Positions 24,700-44,351 of a stretch of 64,000 bases of DNA are shown piece by piece. The notes under the pieces are model-generated. The model saw only the letters and a list, made by a program, of their open reading frames with translations, made no database searches and was not told the origin of the DNA. Source of the stretch: Brachyspira alvinipulli ATCC 51933 (GTDB lineage: Bacteria; Spirochaetota; Brachyspiria; Brachyspirales; Brachyspiraceae); assembly GCF_000518245.1 (NCBI RefSeq), contig NZ_KI912404.1, forward strand, positions 109,897 to 173,896, given 5' to 3'. The translations under genes were made by a program, and so were the position numbers. Every line of letters starts with the position of its first letter. Position 1 is the stretch's first letter.

Positions 24700-25840
24700 A
24701 TGGATTATAAAAAATTAAATGATATCATAGTCTCTATGAGAAGAGATTTGCATAAAATACCAGAAGTAGGAACAGATCTTCCTCAAACAAAAGAATATGT
24801 AATAAATAAATTAAAAGAATTAGGTATTGATTATAAAGAGTCATCAATAGATTCAGGGCTTGTATGCGATATAGGAGATTTGAACAGTAATAATATAGCT
24901 GCTATAAGGGCTGATATGGATGCATTGCCTATAAAGGAGGAAACAGATTTTGAATATGCATCTAAGAACGGAAATATGCATGCTTGCGGACATGATGTGC
25001 ATACAGCCTGTCTTTTAGGAGCAGCATATTATTTACTTGAAAATAAGTCAAGATTAAAGGGTAGAGTAAGATTGATTTGAGGAATTAGCAAGAGGGGCAC
25101 ATAATATGCTTAATTCCAAATTATTAGACGGAGTTAATGCCATAATAGGAACACATGTAGGTACTTTAGCATCAAATGTTCCTAGCGGAGAGTTTGTGAT
25201 TCAGGATGGGGCTTTAATGGCTTCTAATGATAGGATATTTATTAAAGTTATAGGAAAAGGCTCTCATGGTGCTTATCCTCATTTATCTGCAGATCCAATA
25301 TTAACTGCAAGTCAAATAATACAGGCAATATATAATATAAAAAGCAGAGAAATATTGGCAACAGATCCTATAATTATTTCGATATGCATGGTTCATGGCG
25401 GAAGTCAGTATAATATAATACCTTCAGAAGTAAATATAGAAGGAACTTTCAGAACTTTTAGTGAACAAAATAGATCATATATAACAGAAAGAATAAAAGA
25501 AATAGCAGAATCTATTGCTGTTTCTAACAGAGCTAAAGCAGAAGTTGTAATAAAACGCAGAGGAGCGCCTGTTATTAACGATGTAAAAATAGTAAAACAA
25601 TTAAATGAAGTTTGTGATGAATTAGGATTTAGAAAACATAATAATCATGTTTTATCTATGGCGGGAGAAGATTTTGCTGATTATCTTGAAACAATTAAAG
25701 GTTCATTTATATTCTTTTCTACAATGACAGAAAAAAATATAGCTCATCATAATAGTAAATTTGAAGTAGATGAATCTAAATTGTATCAGCCTTCCGTTTT
25801 GATGAGTGAATGGGCTATAAAATATTTAAGTGAATTTTAA
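24700..25840 (+). pseudogene. M20-family amidohydrolase, broken by a small deletion
   Basis: The N-terminal frame has RRDLHKIPEVG, IRADMDALPIKEET and NMHACGHDVHTA, then stops at TGA 25078-25080 right after GRVRLI. The C-terminal frame resumes with EELARGAHNM and runs to MAGEDFADYL and the end. Compared with the intact paralogue at 14913-16103 (RFLFQAGEEIG), about 11 bases covering the codons for F-Q/E-P-A are missing, which removes the residues before the catalytic Glu-Glu and shifts the frame. This is not a homopolymer effect, so the gene is genuinely disrupted unless an assembly slip occurred. Confidence 0.85.
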
Positions 25841-31758: not shown

Positions 31759-33459
31759 ATGAATAATCATATTCTATACATTGTAATTGCATGCATATTT
31801 TTAGTGATATTATTTGCTACTATTTTTATGATCAAAAATATATTCTCTAAAAAAGAAAATAATTCTCTAAAAAAAACTTCAAAAAATGTAAAAAAAAGAA
31901 TGGAAGAGCTTAGAGAGAAAGTTTCATCTAATGTGAAAGACTTGGATTCTTTATATGAACTTGCTTCATTAGAAGAAGAATATGGTGATTTACAAACAGC
32001 TTTAGAAGAATATGAAGCTCTTATAGATGCCAGATATTTTTCTGATGATACTGCAGATGAAATAGAGATATATAAAAAACTTGAAAGCGGATATAGTCAA
32101 TTAAATAACAAAGAAAAAGTTTTGAAATATATGCTGATAATATCAAAATTAGAACCTAATAATATTTATTATTCAATTAAGATAGCAAGTATTTTAGGTA
32201 AAGAAGGTAATTATCAAAGAGCATGTGATTATTTCAATAAGGCGTTAGTTTCTAAAAATGAATTTGAAATAGATGAACTAAAAATAGCGAGTTTATCTTT
32301 TTTTATGGTTAAAGATTATAAAAAATCTATTTTATTTTTGGAGGAACTATATAAAAAGTCTTTTAATGCATTTAAAAATGATAAAAATAAAGATAGAAGC
32401 AATATTAATAATTTAGAGAAATTATTATTATCTATGTATATATCTGCTGATGAACTTAATAATGGTATTTCATTTGCTGAAAAGATATTAGCTGATGATT
32501 TCATGAGTGATGTGCATAAAATATATGTGAATAAGATTTATATGTTTATGCTATATAAATTATCTGATACTGAAAAATTTAATAAATTATATAATGAATT
32601 GATATCTGTTTATCAACTAGATAAAGGAAATAGAAAATATGCAAGTATTATATTCGATTTCGGATTTTATGCATATTTTTTAAAAGATATTGAAACATCT
32701 ATAAAATATTTTAGTATATTAAAATCATTTAATATGCTTGAATTTAGCGTGTATTATTTAGATCAAGTATTAAACTATTTAACAGAAGTAAATAAAGCAT
32801 ATGGTCAGTTAAGTAAATTAAGAAGTGCAATGGGATTAAATGATGAAAAATATAAAAATGAAAGATATGATAAATATGTAGACAAAGAAGCTATGGCTAC
32901 TTGGGAAAAAGTTTTAGGTTTATGGGAAGCTTCTTTTTTGAATCTTGATTATATAACTTCATTAACAGAAATAGAAAAAACTATGGATATTGATAAGATA
33001 TTATTAGATTTTGACGCTAATAAGAGTTCTTATGATAATGCAAAAACAGGAAATATAAATGAAATAGATAAGATATATAAATTAACTTATACTAATTTTA
33101 AAAAATTATGCCAGAATATAGTGCAAACAAAATTATCTTATTCTATATTACAGGAATATTCTGATAATGTTATCAATTATGAATATGGAGATGAAGTTAA
33201 TTTTTTAGCTTATCATATTAATAAAGGTAAGAAAGATTTGACTTTAATATCTTTCAAACGTTGGAAAAATACTGAAATTGGAGAATTAATTTTAAGAGAT
33301 TTTATGCTTATGGTTAATGAGTCAGGGGCAAAGAGCGGAATATTAGTTCTTCCAGTTAGATTATCAAATAGTGCTAAAAGCTATGCATTGCATAATGATA
33401 AGATAACAGTTTATTCCAGAAGTCAGTTTAATTCTTTTTTAAAGACTAAATTCGTATAA
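31759..33459 (+). CDS. Membrane-anchored TPR protein with Mrr-like C-terminal domain (copy 1 of 3)
   Basis: I chose ATG 31759 (MNNHILYIVIACIF) since this makes the first 25 residues a membrane anchor as in the two paralogues; an upstream ATG at 31702 would add a second hydrophobic stretch. After a KKTSKNVKKRMEELREKV linker come TPR-like helices (LYELASLEEEYGDLQTALEEYE, ILGKEGNYQRACDYFNKAL; in parts). The last 100 residues resemble the Mrr/PD-(D/E)xK fold: YGDEVNFLAY, LTLISFKRWKN, then ESGAKSGILVLPVRLSNSAKSYA. In Mrr the Asp and Gln of GvD...QxK are catalytic; here they read Asn and Ser, with Lys kept. Thus it may be an inactive nuclease fold. Function unknown. Confidence 0.7.
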   Translation: MNNHILYIVIACIFLVILFATIFMIKNIFSKKENNSLKKTSKNVKKRMEELREKVSSNVKDLDSLYELASLEEEYGDLQTALEEYEALIDARYFSDDTADEIEIYKKLESGYSQLNNKEKVLKYMLIISKLEPNNIYYSIKIASILGKEGNYQRACDYFNKALVSKNEFEIDELKIASLSFFMVKDYKKSILFLEELYKKSFNAFKNDKNKDRSNINNLEKLLLSMYISADELNNGISFAEKILADDFMSDVHKIYVNKIYMFMLYKLSDTEKFNKLYNELISVYQLDKGNRKYASIIFDFGFYAYFLKDIETSIKYFSILKSFNMLEFSVYYLDQVLNYLTEVNKAYGQLSKLRSAMGLNDEKYKNERYDKYVDKEAMATWEKVLGLWEASFLNLDYITSLTEIEKTMDIDKILLDFDANKSSYDNAKTGNINEIDKIYKLTYTNFKKLCQNIVQTKLSYSILQEYSDNVINYEYGDEVNFLAYHINKGKKDLTLISFKRWKNTEIGELILRDFMLMVNESGAKSGILVLPVRLSNSAKSYALHNDKITVYSRSQFNSFLKTKFV

Positions 33460-33477
33460 TTTGGGGATAAGTTTTAT

Positions 33478-35159
33478 ATGATGGACGCTTATACTTATAT
33501 TTTTATAGTACCTGTATCTATTATATTAGTAATAGGTATTATCATATTTTTTAATTCTGTGTTAAAAAAAAATGATTATTATAAACCTAAAAATATAAAG
33601 AAAAAAATGGATGATCTTGAGAAAAAAATTAAAGAAAATCCATCCGATTATAATTCTCTTTATGAGTTAGCCAAACTTGAAGAACAGCATAATTTTTTAG
33701 AAAATGCTTTAAGTAAATATGAAAAATTAATAGAAGTTGACTATTTTGAAGGAGAAGAAGTAAATATATATAAAAAATTAGAGGATATACATAGAAGGTT
33801 AGGTAATGAAGAAGAAAGTTTCAAGTATGTTCTAAAAGTATCTCAATTAGATGATAAAGATAATTATTATTCATTAAAGACAGCCACCATCTTAGGAAAA
33901 GAGGGAGCTTATAGTTTAGCTTGTAAATATTTTAATAGGGTTCTTAATAATAAAAGCGATTTTGAAATAGATGAATTAAAAATAGGTTCATTATGCTATT
34001 TTGTAGGTCATGAGTATAAAAAAATGATTACTTTGCTTGAAGAGCTGCATAAAAGATTAAGCAGAAATATAAGCAATATTGAAGAAGATTATGAGGAAAT
34101 GGTATTAGTAGAAAAAATACTATTGTCATTATATATAGCTACAGATGAAATAAATACAGCTAGAAATTTGGCAGAGCATATTTTGTCTTTAAGAAGTATT
34201 AATAATGATAAGTCTTATAAATTTTTTATTAATAGAATGTATTTGTATATATTATATAAATCAGATGATAATGCTGCTTTTGAAGAGCTGTATAATAAAC
34301 TTTCAAATGAATATAAAATAAGTGATATTGAAAAAGAAAAAACCAATATTATTTTGGATTTCTCTTTTTACAGCTACTTCATAAAAGATATTAACAGTGC
34401 TATTCATTATTTTGAGCATTTAAGATTATTTGAAGCACCTGAATTTGCTTCTTATGATTTTAATAATATTCTAAAATATTTATTAGAAATATCAAAGGCT
34501 AATGAACAATTAAAAAAATCAAGAGCTTCAATGCAGTTAAATAATGATGAAAAGTTTAAACATGAGAATTATGAAAAATATGTTAGTAAAGCATATATTG
34601 ATATTTGGGAAGAGAGTGTTAAATTATGGGAAAGTTCTTTTAATAATATTGATTATATATTTCAATTAGTAGAAATAGAAGGAACTATGGATATTGCAAA
34701 AATATTATCAGAATGCAATATAGATGAGAATACATCTTCTGTAGAAAATAAAACTGTTAAAAAAGTTGATAGAATATATGATATAACTTTAGCATCATTT
34801 AAGAGTATATGTTTTGATATAGTACAAAATAAATTATTATATTCTGCTGTGCAGGAATATAATGAAAATTCAATAAGTTATGATTATGGTGATGAAGTTA
34901 ATTATTTAGCTTTTGCTTCAAATAAAAATAAGAAAGATTTAACATTAATATCTTTTAAACGCTGGAGAAATACTGAAGTTGGAGAATTGATATAAGAGAC
35001 TTTCTAATGCTTATTGATGAAGCTGGTGCTAATAATGGTATATTAATATTGCCTGTAGAGCTTACAAGCACTGCTAGAAGCTATGCTTTACACAATAATA
35101 AGATAAAAGTTTATACTAGAAACCAATTTAATTATATGTTAAGAGACAGTAGATTTTAA
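33478..35159 (+). pseudogene. Membrane-anchored TPR protein with Mrr-like domain (copy 2 of 3), frameshifted near the end
   Basis: The first 505 codons are intact and parallel copies 1 and 3: N-terminal anchor YIFIVPVSIILVIGIIIFF, a KKKMDDLEKKIKENP linker, TPR-like helices, then YGDEVNYLAF and LISFKRWRNTEVGELI. A stop follows at 34993-34995. The expected continuation RDFLMLIDEAGANNGILILP and LTSTARSYALHNNKIKVY is present in the next frame up to TAA 35157-35159. TTGATATAAG should be TTGATAATAAG, so a single A is missing, not in a long homopolymer. The missing part is the last 50 residues of the Mrr-like domain. 18 bases separate it from copy 1. Confidence 0.75.
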
Positions 35160-35217
35160 CATTTATTTTGTTATATTTTATATACATATTATTGATTTAA
35201 TAGTAAGGATAGTAGAA

Positions 35218-36876
35218 ATGAGTTACATTTATATTGTTATTGCAGCTGCATTCATATTGTTGCTGATTTCTTTTTTACTTATAAAAAAAATTCTAAGTAA
35301 TAAATCTTCTAAAAAAGTTTCAGGAAATATTAAAAAGAAAATTGAAAAATTAAAAGCGGCTTTATCAGAAAATCCCAAAGACTATGTATCTATGTATCAA
35401 TTGGCATTGCTTGAGGATGAGATAGGTGATGATGCTAATGCTTTAAAAAAATATGAGGAACTTTTGAATGTTTCTTTTTTTCAAGGTAAAGAGGAAATTG
35501 ATTTCTGTAAAAAGGTCGAGGGCTATTATGATAAAATAGAAAATAAAGAGATGTCATTTAAATATGCTATAAAGATTACTAAGCTTGACCCTAATAATAT
35601 TTATTATTCAATAAAAGTTGCATCTATACTTGGAAAAGAGGGTAGTTATTTATTAGCTTGTGATTATTTCAATAGAGCGCTTCTTTCAAAAGGTGAATTT
35701 GATATAGAAAGTATCAAGATTGCAGTTTTTTCTTTCTTTAAGATAAAAGAGTATAAAAAATGTATTGTATTTTTAGAAGAGCTTTATAAGAGAATGGCTA
35801 AAGATAAAAATAACATTGGAAGTGATGAATTAAATAATTTGCAAAGAAGTTTGATATCAATGTATATACTATCTGATGAACTTAATATAGCTAGAAATTT
35901 TATTGAGCAGGTTCTTATAGAAAACAATAATGAAAGTCATTTATATTTTATTGATAAAATGTATTTATATATATTGTATAAATTAGTTGAAAATGAGAAG
36001 TTTAAGGAATTGTATGATAAAATGTATATTAAATACAAGATTAAAGATTATAATAAAAATTATTATAGTTTAATATTGGATTATTGTTTTTATTCATACT
36101 TTTTGAAAGACATGACATTTGCCATAAAATCATTTGAAGCTATAAATAGTTTTAATTTGCCAGAGCTTAAAGTTTATAATATTAATGGCATATTAAAATA
36201 TTTGTCAGATATAGACAGGGCAACTTCTCAGCTTAATAAACTTAGAAGTGTAATGAAATTGGATAATTCAAAAAATGACAATTATGAAAGATATGTAGAA
36301 AAAGAGGATATTGAGAATTGGGAAAAATCTATTGATTTGTGGGAAGGATCATTTATAGATATAGATTATATATTATCATTAATGGCTGTAGAGAAAACCA
36401 TTGATATAGAAAAAATATTAGAGGAATTAAAAATAGATAGTAATCCAAGCAATGAAATGGATTTAAAAATAATAAAAAAGGTTGATAAAATATATAATTT
36501 AAATAAAGTAGATTTCAAAAAATTATGCCAAAATTTAATACGTTCAAGATTGGCTTATTCTATAGTGCAGGAATATACTGATAATGTTGCTAGCAGTAAT
36601 TATGGAGATGAGGTGAATTATTTAACTTATCATGTTAAAGGTAATAAAAAAGATCTTACATTAATATCATTCAAACGTTGGAAAAAAGTAGAGATTGGAG
36701 AATTAATGATTAGAGATTTTCTTATGATGGTTAATGAATCCGGTGCTAAAAACGGTATTTTAATAGTACCAGTAAAATTAAGCAATAGTGCTAAAAGTTA
36801 TGCTTCTCATAATGATAAAATAACAGTTTATTCTAGAAATCAATTTAATAATTTACTTAAAGATGAAAATCTTTAA
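35218..36876 (+). CDS. Membrane-anchored TPR protein with Mrr-like C-terminal domain (copy 3 of 3)
   Basis: Same layout as the two genes before it: membrane anchor YIVIAAAFILLLISFLLIKK (residues 5-24), basic linker, TPR-like repeats with LDPNNIYYSIKVASILGKEG, and a C-terminal Mrr-like domain with YGDEVNYLTYHV, LTLISFKRWKKVEIGEL and ESGAKNGILIVPVKLSNSAKSYA. Tandem copies share about half of their residues by eye, with the C-terminal domain conserved most. AAGGATAG lies 8 bases before the ATG. The orientation of the anchor would place the TPR and Mrr-like parts in the cytoplasm. I do not recognise a described family. Confidence 0.7.
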   Translation: MSYIYIVIAAAFILLLISFLLIKKILSNKSSKKVSGNIKKKIEKLKAALSENPKDYVSMYQLALLEDEIGDDANALKKYEELLNVSFFQGKEEIDFCKKVEGYYDKIENKEMSFKYAIKITKLDPNNIYYSIKVASILGKEGSYLLACDYFNRALLSKGEFDIESIKIAVFSFFKIKEYKKCIVFLEELYKRMAKDKNNIGSDELNNLQRSLISMYILSDELNIARNFIEQVLIENNNESHLYFIDKMYLYILYKLVENEKFKELYDKMYIKYKIKDYNKNYYSLILDYCFYSYFLKDMTFAIKSFEAINSFNLPELKVYNINGILKYLSDIDRATSQLNKLRSVMKLDNSKNDNYERYVEKEDIENWEKSIDLWEGSFIDIDYILSLMAVEKTIDIEKILEELKIDSNPSNEMDLKIIKKVDKIYNLNKVDFKKLCQNLIRSRLAYSIVQEYTDNVASSNYGDEVNYLTYHVKGNKKDLTLISFKRWKKVEIGELMIRDFLMMVNESGAKNGILIVPVKLSNSAKSYASHNDKITVYSRNQFNNLLKDENL

Positions 36877-38965: not shown

Positions 38966-39640
38966 TTATTTAATCATTTTAGTTAAATCTGTGATAAAGT
39001 TAGAAAATAATTTTACTTTTTTACTTTCTTGAACATCACTTTCTGTTAATATATAACAACCATCTGTATCAACTTCAGCAATAGCACGACCTTTTTTAGT
39101 AGGCTTTTTTATAGATAAAGTATCATCTTCATCAAGGGTAATAAACAGAACTTTTATATCTTTTGTAACAGAAGATTGCATAAGCTTTAATTTCCAATAA
39201 CCAGTTTGAGCTATTCTTTCTCTTAAAGTGACTTTTATAGACAGTACAGCAATTATTTTACTATCTTTATTATCATAAATTATGATATCAACATCTGGTA
39301 AATGTAGTCCATATTCCCCATAATCTATACACAGATTCCTTTTTAATAAGTCTAAAGTCTTATCTTTAATATTTTTCTTTTTTTCTAATTTATTTCCATT
39401 AATTATAGACAATCCTAATTTTTTAATTTCATCAGCAATAATATATTCAATAATTTTTTCAAGATTTTTACCTTTGAAAGCTCTCCAAGACTGTTCAGTA
39501 TCTTTTATACCATTTTTTAAAGCATCTTGCTTATGATTTTCTTCAGCGTCCATCAAAATTTCTGAAATATGTCTATAAACTTTATCACCATAGACTTTTT
39601 TCTTATCTTTATAAATAGTTATTAAATCTTCAAATTTCAT
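38966..39640 (-). CDS. Type II restriction endonuclease (BsaWI-like PD-(D/E)xK)
   Basis: The 224-residue protein has a PD-(D/E)xK core: LPDVDIIIYDNKDSK, then AVLSIKVTLRERIAQTGYWK, where SxK-x-x-L-R-E-R-x-x-Q-T-x-x-W-K is the pattern I know from BsaWI-type enzymes (in which the residue before K is usually Cys). It should cleave a short palindromic site protected by the adjacent methyltransferase; the target cannot be read from the sequence. It overlaps the methyltransferase stop by 4 bases (ATGA), so the toxic enzyme is made after the protective one. Codons look like the neighbours. Confidence 0.72.
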   Translation of the reverse strand: MKFEDLITIYKDKKKVYGDKVYRHISEILMDAEENHKQDALKNGIKDTEQSWRAFKGKNLEKIIEYIIADEIKKLGLSIINGNKLEKKKNIKDKTLDLLKRNLCIDYGEYGLHLPDVDIIIYDNKDSKIIAVLSIKVTLRERIAQTGYWKLKLMQSSVTKDIKVLFITLDEDDTLSIKKPTKKGRAIAEVDTDGCYILTESDVQESKKVKLFSNFITDLTKMIK

Positions 39641-41013
39641 AATTTCTCCATAATTAAAATATATTCTGTAGGATAAACTAATTTATCTGTAGAGGAAGTT
39701 TTAGCAAATCTTCCTGTAATAGAATCTCTAGTAGAAGGAAGCATTTTCGATGGAATTTCTCTATGTATAATATTACAAACTTTAAAACCTATATTTATCA
39801 TTTGTTCACAAAATATCTCAGCATTTAATATATCTACATTTTTAAACTGGGTATTACCTATTACAATTGCTGCTTTTCCTTTATATTTTAATATTCTTTT
39901 CATTTCAATAAAACTTTCAAGCATATCAGCATAATAATTTTTTATCTCTCTTATCTTTTTTTTATTATTTGAAAATTTGTGTATAGTTTCAATAACTATA
40001 CTACTTTTTAAATCTACTGCATCAATATCAACTCTATTTTTATATCCACTGCCTATAAATTTTTCTCTAAACTCAGGTAAAGTATTTAAATATCCCAACC
40101 ATAAAGATGGAAGTTGATGTAAATCTGCATATTCATAACTTGTTACATAGGGGGGACTTGTTACAATAAAATCAGCTTTTTCATCTTCTAAAGGAATAAA
40201 TCTGGAATCAGAACATTTTATTTTTCTATATTTATTTATATCTGAAATAAAACTTTTATCAAGCATAGTATTATACATTTCATGCCTTTTTATCATTCTT
40301 TTTGCTTGACTTAAAAATAAATTATAAGAATCCTGTTCTTTTTTCTTCATATCTCTTGTAGGCTTTATGCTTTTTTGAAGCCATATAGAAGCTGTTTTTA
40401 ATATTTGCGCAAATGCTAAAAGATAAAAATCTCTTATATCTATATTTTCTATTTCAAATATAGAATAAAAAATTAAGGATAATTCTTTTTTTTGTTTAGG
40501 TTTAAACCAATAATCTATTCTATCATTATTAGGAACAATATTTTTTGCTTTTATTAAAATATCTTCTTCAGCAAAGATACTATAGTTTGTCAATTTTTCT
40601 TCTAATTTTAGATATTCTTTTTTTAATAATTCAATATCAAGCGGAGTAGTTTTTACTTTTGATATAAGATATGCTATTTCATTTATATCAACTCCACATG
40701 CATATCTTTTATTAACAAGACTTTCAACAATAGTAGTACCGCTACCCATAAAAGGATCAACAACAACTTCTTTTTCTTTTGTATATGTATTAATTAATCT
40801 TGAAACTAATTGAGGGATAAATTTAGCAGGATATGTGTAATAATTATGTGTAATATATGCTGTATCTTTTATAGTTTTATCAGAAAAAGACCAAGAATAA
40901 TCTAAAGGAATAGAACTTAAGTCTTTTATATTGTAAGATTCAATATTATTAAATGGCATAAAGGTATTATTATACATAAAATTAATCAGCCTTTTATTTT
41001 CATAAATACTCAT
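39637..41013 (-). CDS. DNA methyltransferase of Type II restriction-modification system (N4-cytosine type)
   Basis: The SAM-binding motif VVDPFMGSGTTIVESL is at about residue 80 and the catalytic motif TSPPYVTSYEYADLH at about residue 285, the order and TSPPY sequence of N4-cytosine or N6-adenine enzymes (TSPPY favours cytosine-N4). The spacer of about 190 residues probably contains the target-recognition part. The protein begins MSIYENKRLINF; its first seven residues and the surrounding bases are a perfect copy of the start of the EFR1 gene. It is the first gene of a two-gene unit with the endonuclease. Confidence 0.88.
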   Translation of the reverse strand: MSIYENKRLINFMYNNTFMPFNNIESYNIKDLSSIPLDYSWSFSDKTIKDTAYITHNYYTYPAKFIPQLVSRLINTYTKEKEVVVDPFMGSGTTIVESLVNKRYACGVDINEIAYLISKVKTTPLDIELLKKEYLKLEEKLTNYSIFAEEDILIKAKNIVPNNDRIDYWFKPKQKKELSLIFYSIFEIENIDIRDFYLLAFAQILKTASIWLQKSIKPTRDMKKKEQDSYNLFLSQAKRMIKRHEMYNTMLDKSFISDINKYRKIKCSDSRFIPLEDEKADFIVTSPPYVTSYEYADLHQLPSLWLGYLNTLPEFREKFIGSGYKNRVDIDAVDLKSSIVIETIHKFSNNKKKIREIKNYYADMLESFIEMKRILKYKGKAAIVIGNTQFKNVDILNAEIFCEQMINIGFKVCNIIHREIPSKMLPSTRDSITGRFAKTSSTDKLVYPTEYILIMEKL

Positions 41014-43028: not shown

Positions 43029-43343
43029 TTATTTATTTTCTTTAGTTTCGTCTATGAGTTTTATAAGTTCATTGCTTCTTGAGGCTATGCTTTCTTTTAA
43101 TGCTGATAGAGTATCTTTTCCTGCTTTACTATTGGCTATCTCTCTTTTTAGAAGGTCTGCTATATTAAGGCATGCTAATATTGCTATAGTATCTCTTGGA
43201 TAACCACTGCCGTAATGTTCTGCTATATCGTTCATACTTTCATTTACGAAATCTGCAATTTCTTTTAAATATTCTATATTTTCTTCATTAGATTTGATAT
43301 TTAAAGTTCTGCCGTATATTGTAACCTCTAAAGAATTATCCAT
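43029..43343 (-). CDS. zapA: Cell division protein ZapA
   Basis: ZapA bundles FtsZ filaments. The 104 residues start with LEVTIYGRTLNIKSNEEN, the ZapA N-terminal domain, followed by a long helix with DTIAILACLNIADLL (the coiled-coil tetramer part). The gene overlaps nothing and lies 21 bases downstream of a coiled-coil protein gene; both are probably driven by the promoter at 44381. Confidence 0.87.
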   Translation of the reverse strand: MDNSLEVTIYGRTLNIKSNEENIEYLKEIADFVNESMNDIAEHYGSGYPRDTIAILACLNIADLLKREIANSKAGKDTLSALKESIASRSNELIKLIDETKENK

Positions 43344-43364
43344 AATTATTTACCTGTTTTTATA

Positions 43365-44351
43365 TTATTTTGATTCATTATCGAAAAAGAAGTCTTCTTC
43401 ATCATCGTCACCAAACATATATTGATCATCTTCATTTATATCAAATTCATAACTATCTTCTTTGTTCTCATTTGATTCTTCAGATTCTTGATTTTCTTCT
43501 TTTATTTCTTTTGCTGCTTTATGTTCATCTTTCTTTATATCATCATCCCAGCTTGAATCTGATGCATTAGAAAATGGATCTTCATCTTCTGTTACTTTAA
43601 CATTTGATGCTACTTTGACTTCTTTTACTGTTTCATGCTTTTTTACTTCTTTTACTTCAGATATTTCGGAAGAGTTTTCTTTATATTCTTCATATTCATT
43701 ATCAAATATATCACTGTCATTGTCGCTAAATGGATCCATATCTTCTTCTATATTTTCTACAACATTAACTTCTTTATTTACTTCTTTTTCTATTACTTTT
43801 ACTTCTTCTTTAATATTATTTATTTCTTCTTTTTTAACTTCAGCTTCTTTTATTTGATTATGAGTTTTTTGTGTATTATTTGATTTTCTTACACTATCTA
43901 TTTTTTCTATAAGAATGCTTAGATTTTCTTTTAACTGTTCATTTTCTTTTGTAAGAGTTTCTATAGCTTTATTGGCATTTTCTAATGCTTTTTTTATATT
44001 ATCATTTTCTTCTATTAATGTTTCAGAATCCTTTTCAATGCTTTCCAAATTAGATTTTAAAGAATCTCTTTCTATTCTAGTTGCTTCCAACTGTTTTATT
44101 AGATTATCTTTTTCTTCTTTTATAGAGTTATAATTATCAGTTACATTTCTTTTATCAGCTTCAAGTATTGTTTTTTCTTCTTTTATAGAAGAGAGATTTT
44201 CTTTTATTTGATTTAATTCATTAATAGCTTGTTCTTTTTCTTTTGTTAATTTGTCTATTATTTGTAATAATTCTTTATTATCTGATGATACTGTTTGGTA
44301 TTCATCTAAAAAATCTTTAATTTTTTCTTCTAAAATAGCAAACTCTTTCAA
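43365..44351 (-). CDS. Long coiled-coil protein with acidic C terminus, upstream of zapA
   Basis: Residues 1-160 form an almost unbroken coiled coil with heptads such as LEEKIKDFLDEYQTV and LTKEKEQAINELNQIKENL (in parts), containing few charged breaks. The second half (about 170-328) is extremely acidic and low in complexity, with repeats DEDPFSNASDSS and EDMDPFSDNDSD, ending in DDDEEDFFFDNESK. No enzymatic motif. Position in one operon with zapA suggests a divisome scaffolding role comparable to ZapB; this is only an inference from context and coiled-coil character. Confidence 0.65.
   Translation of the reverse strand: MKEFAILEEKIKDFLDEYQTVSSDNKELLQIIDKLTKEKEQAINELNQIKENLSSIKEEKTILEADKRNVTDNYNSIKEEKDNLIKQLEATRIERDSLKSNLESIEKDSETLIEENDNIKKALENANKAIETLTKENEQLKENLSILIEKIDSVRKSNNTQKTHNQIKEAEVKKEEINNIKEEVKVIEKEVNKEVNVVENIEEDMDPFSDNDSDIFDNEYEEYKENSSEISEVKEVKKHETVKEVKVASNVKVTEDEDPFSNASDSSWDDDIKKDEHKAAKEIKEENQESEESNENKEDSYEFDINEDDQYMFGDDDEEDFFFDNESK

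Follow-up and report, generated by a model that had tools for sequence, protein, structure and literature searches.

A spirochetal family of membrane-anchored TPR proteins with a degenerate Mrr-like domain: a possible non-catalytic tether for nucleoprotein

In the genome of Brachyspira alvinipulli ATCC 51933, three homologous open reading frames (ORFs) stand in tandem on the + strand at 31759-36876 of a 64,000-nucleotide stretch of contig NZ_KI912404.1, the whole of which was analyzed and is here called the window. Each encodes one N-terminal hydrophobic helix, a tetratricopeptide repeat (TPR)-like region and a C-terminus resembling the catalytic domain of the restriction enzyme Mrr, a tandem arrangement that is well beyond chance. 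We propose, with a probability of about 0.42, that these proteins represent a chromosomal family of the spirochetes, probably of housekeeping rather than defense function, whose members serve at the membrane as non-catalytic scaffolds or tethers of nucleoprotein.

The tandem had been predicted from the sequence of the window (the original prediction), and we found it largely as described. The last domain, taken to be whole in all three genes, is whole in copies A and C; the frame of copy B stops at 34995 directly after '...SFKRWRNTEVGELI', in the middle of the domain, a frameshift that the prediction evidently read through. Given that orthologs of copy B are intact in genomes G018 and G020 (G000 is the source genome, other G-numbers are genomes compared with it and L-numbers are loci), the break is either a recent event or an assembly error. 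Copy A also has intact orthologs there, 93% identical in G020 and 84% in G018. The features of the three genes are as follows.

31759..33459, +, copy A, long-class membrane helix/TPR/Mrr-like protein, 566 amino acids (aa), intact (ORF; Mrr_cat 27.9 bits)
31774..31842, +, N-terminal membrane helix of copy A, about residues 6-28, with a stretch rich in Lys/Arg after it (hydropathy and charge in 64 relatives; helix in the copy C AlphaFold model)
33052..33456, +, Mrr-like C-terminal domain of copy A, Asn at the D-site, Ser at the Q-site, Lys retained (Pfam, hhalign, motif alignment)
33478..34995, +, copy B, anatomy as in A and C, 505 aa, frame ending within the Mrr-like domain after GELI (ORF; intact orthologs in G018 and G020)
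34986..35159, +, rest of the copy B Mrr-like domain in a different frame, 57 codons up to a stop of its own (frame analysis)
35218..36876, +, copy C, long-class membrane helix/TPR/Mrr-like protein, 552 aa, intact, protein modeled (ORF; Mrr_cat; AlphaFold predicted local distance difference test score, pLDDT, 87)
35221..35298, +, membrane helix of copy C, residues 2-27 (AlphaFold model; hydropathy and charge)
35323..36426, +, TPR-like helical solenoid of copy C, residues 36-403 (secondary structure of the model; weak Pfam TPR matches; consensus TPR structures in a PDB profile search)
36469..36873, +, Mrr-like domain of copy C, residues 418-552, with helices (H) and strands (E) in the order H-E-E-E-H-E-H-E-H (isolated domain scoring 37.4 bits with Mrr_cat; domain model with pLDDT 94 and predicted template modeling score, pTM, 0.90; Foldseek)

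Fold and catalytic site of the C-terminal domain

Profile, structure and motif evidence agree that the C-terminal ~120 residues have a restriction-endonuclease-like fold of the PD-(D/E)xK type, in its Mrr branch. The Pfam family Mrr_cat (PF04471, cut-off 21) hits copy A with 27.9 bits (E 2.8e-6) and copy C with 33.5 bits (E 5.1e-8), and it hits all 63 family domains when each is scanned alone. These come from two size classes, a long one of ~515-575 aa and a short one of ~440-490 aa. With hhalign the domain profile matches true ~300-aa spirochetal Mrr at 99.3% probability (E 3.7e-20, 124 columns), pairing GDEVN with GDxGID and ISFKRW with IQxKRW of the true enzymes. Because Foldseek with the whole protein was swamped by generic TPR structures, the C-terminal domain of copy C was modeled alone; its model matched the RPB5 jaw domain of eukaryotic RNA polymerase (1.6e-4), MspJI (3.8e-4), EndoMS (8.8e-4), AspBHI, EcoT38I and AF1548. 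The relation to Mrr suspected in the original prediction was thus borne out by both profile comparison and structure prediction. RPB5, the best solved-structure match by sequence profile (7.3e-5) as well as by fold, has a domain that published work regards as a version of this same fold without catalytic activity (PMC1185551, PMC551604). It is an RNA polymerase subunit and is not membrane bound, and the likeness is one of fold rather than of family membership.

The catalytic domain is therefore homologous in fold to that of the Mrr type IV restriction enzymes. Unlike these, the window copies lack the full D-QxK site, gave no Pfam match to an Mrr_N-type DNA-recognition domain, and carry a membrane helix and TPR region at the N-terminus instead. 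A second inactive restriction-endonuclease fold, the NACHT-associated NA-iREase1 (PF22722), matches 54 of the 63 domains weakly; the window copies score 15.4-18.6 (copy C 15.4 as a whole protein and 18.6 as a domain) against a cut-off of 27, although one outgroup protein reaches 30.6. No NACHT domain was found in the family proteins or their annotated neighbors.

We aligned the catalytic motifs of the 63 domains, comprising 38 long-class domains from Brachyspira, 12 long-class domains from other families, three from other genera of the Brachyspiraceae and the short class. True spirochetal Mrr enzymes read D...QxK. Copies A and C have Asn, Ser and Lys at the mapped positions, as predicted, so that the D...Q/E-x-K site is incomplete and catalysis by these copies is unlikely as judged from sequence. 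The Asn does not extend to the whole family. Among the 38 Brachyspira long domains the first position is Asn in 32 and Asp in 6 (from G010, G013 and G016, five of the six holding D, S and K together), the second is Ser in all, and the third is Lys in 37 and Arg in one. Long-class proteins outside the Brachyspiraceae all keep Asp (12/12) but all have Arg for Lys (12/12), the three proteins from sister genera within the Brachyspiraceae have N and R, and in the short class a recognizable catalytic site is gone. An Arg, residue 487 of copy C, follows the Lys position in 63/63 domains, and a complete canonical D-QxK site occurs in none of the 63.

Elsewhere in the source genome (L002:1369-2970, -) lies a DNA methyltransferase fused to an Mrr_cat domain that reads D...S-x-K (GDGGID...ISVKSS). 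Ser at the Gln site is therefore no proof of inactivity by itself.

Constraint, topology and distribution

We compared dN/dS (the ratio of nonsynonymous to synonymous substitution rates, by the Nei-Gojobori method) between the C domain and the TPR part for six valid ortholog pairs. Two copy C pairs gave 0.088 and 0.037 for the C domain against 0.18-0.19 for the TPR part, copy A gave 0.041 against 0.154, and the G013/G010 pair gave 0.056 against 0.183; these four of the six pairs thus fall at 0.04-0.09 and 0.15-0.19, respectively. The G003/G021 pair was higher in both parts (0.13 against 0.26), and copy B, whose frame ends early, was equal in both (0.18). A copy A/G020 pair computed from wrong coordinates was excluded. 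Conservation within the protein is thus usually highest in the degenerate domain, which favors a binding role over decay.

In 64 relatives, sampled within the Spirochaetota, a single hydrophobic helix begins near residue 5. The 25 residues after this helix contain on average 6.7 Lys/Arg and the residues before it 0.1, a bias seen in 64/64 relatives, from which the soluble part is predicted to be cytoplasmic. Brachyspira C domains are basic (median charge +5, isoelectric point ~9.2; copy C +8, copy A +6) and the TPR part is acidic (-11).

Homologs occur in 26/26 Brachyspira genomes, at one to four full or disrupted copies each, so that the three copies noted in the original prediction are a sample. 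The Brachyspira copies form at least three old paralog groups common to many sampled species, and in other Brachyspira genomes copy C is often distant from the A-B pair. A short-class relative is likewise present in 26/26 genomes, including elsewhere in the source genome; in the one Brachyspira short-class relative examined the Mrr-like end was weaker. Across the phylum, the family profile matches 202 of 393 Spirochaetota genomes, some matches spanning only the membrane helix and TPR part. Mrr_cat matches 108 of 120 Spirochaetota genomes, mostly in open frames of 445-600 aa as opposed to the ~300 aa of true Mrr, a warning for annotation that most spirochetal Mrr_cat matches are not restriction enzymes. 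A profile search of phage, plasmid and viral-contig collections yielded zero family matches.

The family reaches very reduced genomes. A genome of 1,139,633 bases encodes two short-class proteins; one of the genes spans 499837-501246, and its codon 357 (GAT at 500905) coincides with the D357N site of Treponema pallidum TP0471, a protein described as a 'hypothetical protein with TPR domain' (PMC10013896) that our literature search met in genome-variation papers only. Borrelia-sized genomes have one short-class homolog each, of 470-487 aa. TP0471 and these homologs have the anatomy of the short class, with an N-terminal helix, a TPR region and a degenerate Mrr-like end.

Two further loci deserve mention. 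At L119:7453-8814 (+) of the source genome is a third membrane-anchored TPR relative, beside a GGDEF-like gene, and related frames of 458-481 aa occur in most Brachyspira genomes; its Mrr-like end was unconvincing and we excluded it from the family count. At L051 (G004:C5:279500-286000), BspA/DUF285-like repeats and a copy A homolog share one continuous open frame of 1124 residues.

Neighboring genes and proposed function

Several other spirochetes share a gene order around the family: short form, cyclic nucleotide-binding/patatin-like, small membrane protein, STAS, a protein of ~750 aa, long form, ParB_N-like. Of the 43 genomes that hold the last of these (E <= 1e-15), 39 have it directly next to the long form (adjacency tallied by hand from coordinates). 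Pfam ParB_N matches 7 of 11 of these neighbors at E <= 0.1, the best at 1.7e-7, giving moderate confidence in the assignment. Conserved operon partners were sought across Brachyspira and not found, the neighbors of the copies varying by species. The ParB_N profile match in G000 proved to be the canonical ParB downstream of ParA and was rejected as a partner.

In the function that we propose, the N-terminal helix would anchor the protein in the inner membrane, the acidic TPR solenoid would reach into the cytoplasm and dock a client protein, and the Mrr-type fold, without a complete canonical site, would have been retained as a binding module. Its likeliest ligand would be nucleic acid or nucleoprotein, making the protein a non-cutting membrane-to-nucleoid tether or sensor, with the ParB_N-like neighbor of the long form in many other spirochetes as a likely partner. 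In Brachyspira that partner may have been lost or replaced, while the long form expanded into diverging paralogs, some of them decaying. A membrane tether and a probable inability of the window copies to cut, both part of the original prediction, are supported by the profile, structure and motif evidence; a possible role in chromosome anchoring receives indirect support from the ParB_N-like adjacency in relatives, the basic domain and the predicted cytoplasmic topology.

Several observations weigh against this proposal. The C-domain charge is about 0 in other Brachyspiraceae genera and has a median of +1.5 in other long-class proteins. Breaks affect several Brachyspira copies (B in G000, one in G011 and one in G014) and G015 is without an intact long copy; the long class can thus be dispensed with. 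Because one Brachyspira lineage has the D-S-K combination, loss of activity is not established for the whole family. The ParB_N-like gene is present in 43 of 384 Spirochaetota genomes, thus missing from most, and a profile search did not find this partner in Brachyspira. Finally, the role of the RPB5 domain may lie in protein-protein contacts (PMC1185551), and a conserved fold is therefore no proof of nucleic-acid binding. We regard as unlikely the more sweeping version of the proposal, in which a dead Mrr domain on a TPR arm, with a ParB_N-like partner in many lineages, would be a spirochete-wide membrane-to-nucleoid tether with a core function even in the reduced genomes of Treponema pallidum and Borrelia.

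The strongest alternative is a pure protein-protein scaffold, in which the domain would contact proteins only, like RPB5, within a membrane assembly factor; we consider this possible, though we would not expect it. LapB/YciM has such a layout, with an N-terminal membrane helix, cytoplasmic TPRs and a small C-terminal domain, and the single helix and predicted cytoplasmic TPR part of our family agree with it. The strongly acidic TPR part and the presence of LapB among the PDB profile matches (2.6e-5) also fit, as does RPB5, the top fold match, as an inactive domain tied to protein-protein contacts. However, the LapB matches are confined to the generic TPR region, and LapB ends in a rubredoxin-type metal domain where our proteins end in an Mrr-like one. 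In Brachyspira this end is basic, it is usually under stronger constraint than the rest of the protein, and the ParB_N-like neighbor in relatives points to DNA-related work. In a different alternative the proteins would be periplasmic, like the flagellar collar proteins FlcA/B/C known from Borrelia, which are spirochete-wide TPR proteins with one N-terminal helix. The comparison is one of layout, and we find the idea hardly tenable: the Lys/Arg bias after the helix in 64/64 relatives predicts a cytoplasmic C-terminus, and the Mrr-like domain would be left unaccounted for.

The original prediction also raised an unrecognized defense system. In such a system the inactive restriction fold would detect invading nucleic acid at the membrane and signal through the TPRs. 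A sensor role for nucleotides or nucleic acids has been proposed for inactive restriction endonuclease domains of conflict systems (PMC12839542), most of our domains touch NA-iREase1, and a BsaWI-type restriction-modification pair lies 2 kb away. The family is nevertheless chromosomal and widespread, keeps its anatomy in very reduced genomes, and was absent from the phages, plasmids and viral contigs searched. There is no adjacent NACHT or other effector, PADLOC found nothing meaningful (copy A has a marginal LmuB match at E 0.042, copies B and C have no match), and in the close relative G020 copy C does not have the restriction-modification pair beside it. We conclude that a defense role is improbable. 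Less probable still is a membrane-tethered nuclease still active through an altered site such as D...S-x-K. The five domains with D, S and K and the D...SVK of the methyltransferase-fused Mrr_cat of the source genome speak for it, but the window copies have Asn for Asp, the 12 other long-class and three sister-genus proteins have Arg for Lys, and the short class is without a recognizable site.

The components of these proteins are already known (the Mrr fold, inactive restriction endonuclease domains, TPRs and membrane anchors) and Pfam labels the proteins in part. In the literature searched we found no description of the phylum-wide combination of membrane helix, TPR and dead Mrr domain, of its two classes or of the ParB_N adjacency, and no paper that treats Brachyspira together with TPR and restriction endonuclease. 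A non-catalytic tether, if our proposal is true, would be an unusual reuse of a pseudo-enzyme, with a nuclease fold serving as a probably non-cutting, membrane-tethered module across most sampled spirochete branches, including two major human pathogens, the syphilis and Lyme disease spirochetes. Proteins at present annotated 'TPR' or 'restriction endonuclease' would gain a name and a role open to testing, and should the ParB_N link hold, the tether would be relevant to the placement of DNA along the membrane in long, thin spirochete cells.

Other genes near family members

The restriction-modification pair near copy C (38966-41013, -) consists of a BsaWI-type restriction endonuclease and an N6/N4 DNA methyltransferase. 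It is found beside copy C in G018 and G007 as well as in the window; its absence in G020 makes it probably a mobile insertion. On the same strand of the window, at 43029-44351, are a 104-aa gene that we call ZapA-like by eye and a coiled-coil gene. Both genes also occur next to copy B in about 11 other Brachyspira genomes, where they converge on it, an orientation for which we do not claim an operon.

In two Treponema-like genomes (L104, L105) the short-class gene is clustered with genes for a metallophosphoesterase, a GAF-SpoIIE phosphatase and a STAS protein, which suggests a signaling link in that lineage. Upstream of the tandem, at 24700-25840 (+) of the window, an M20-type peptidase/amidohydrolase is spread over two ORFs (126 and 244 aa) and is apparently a disrupted gene.

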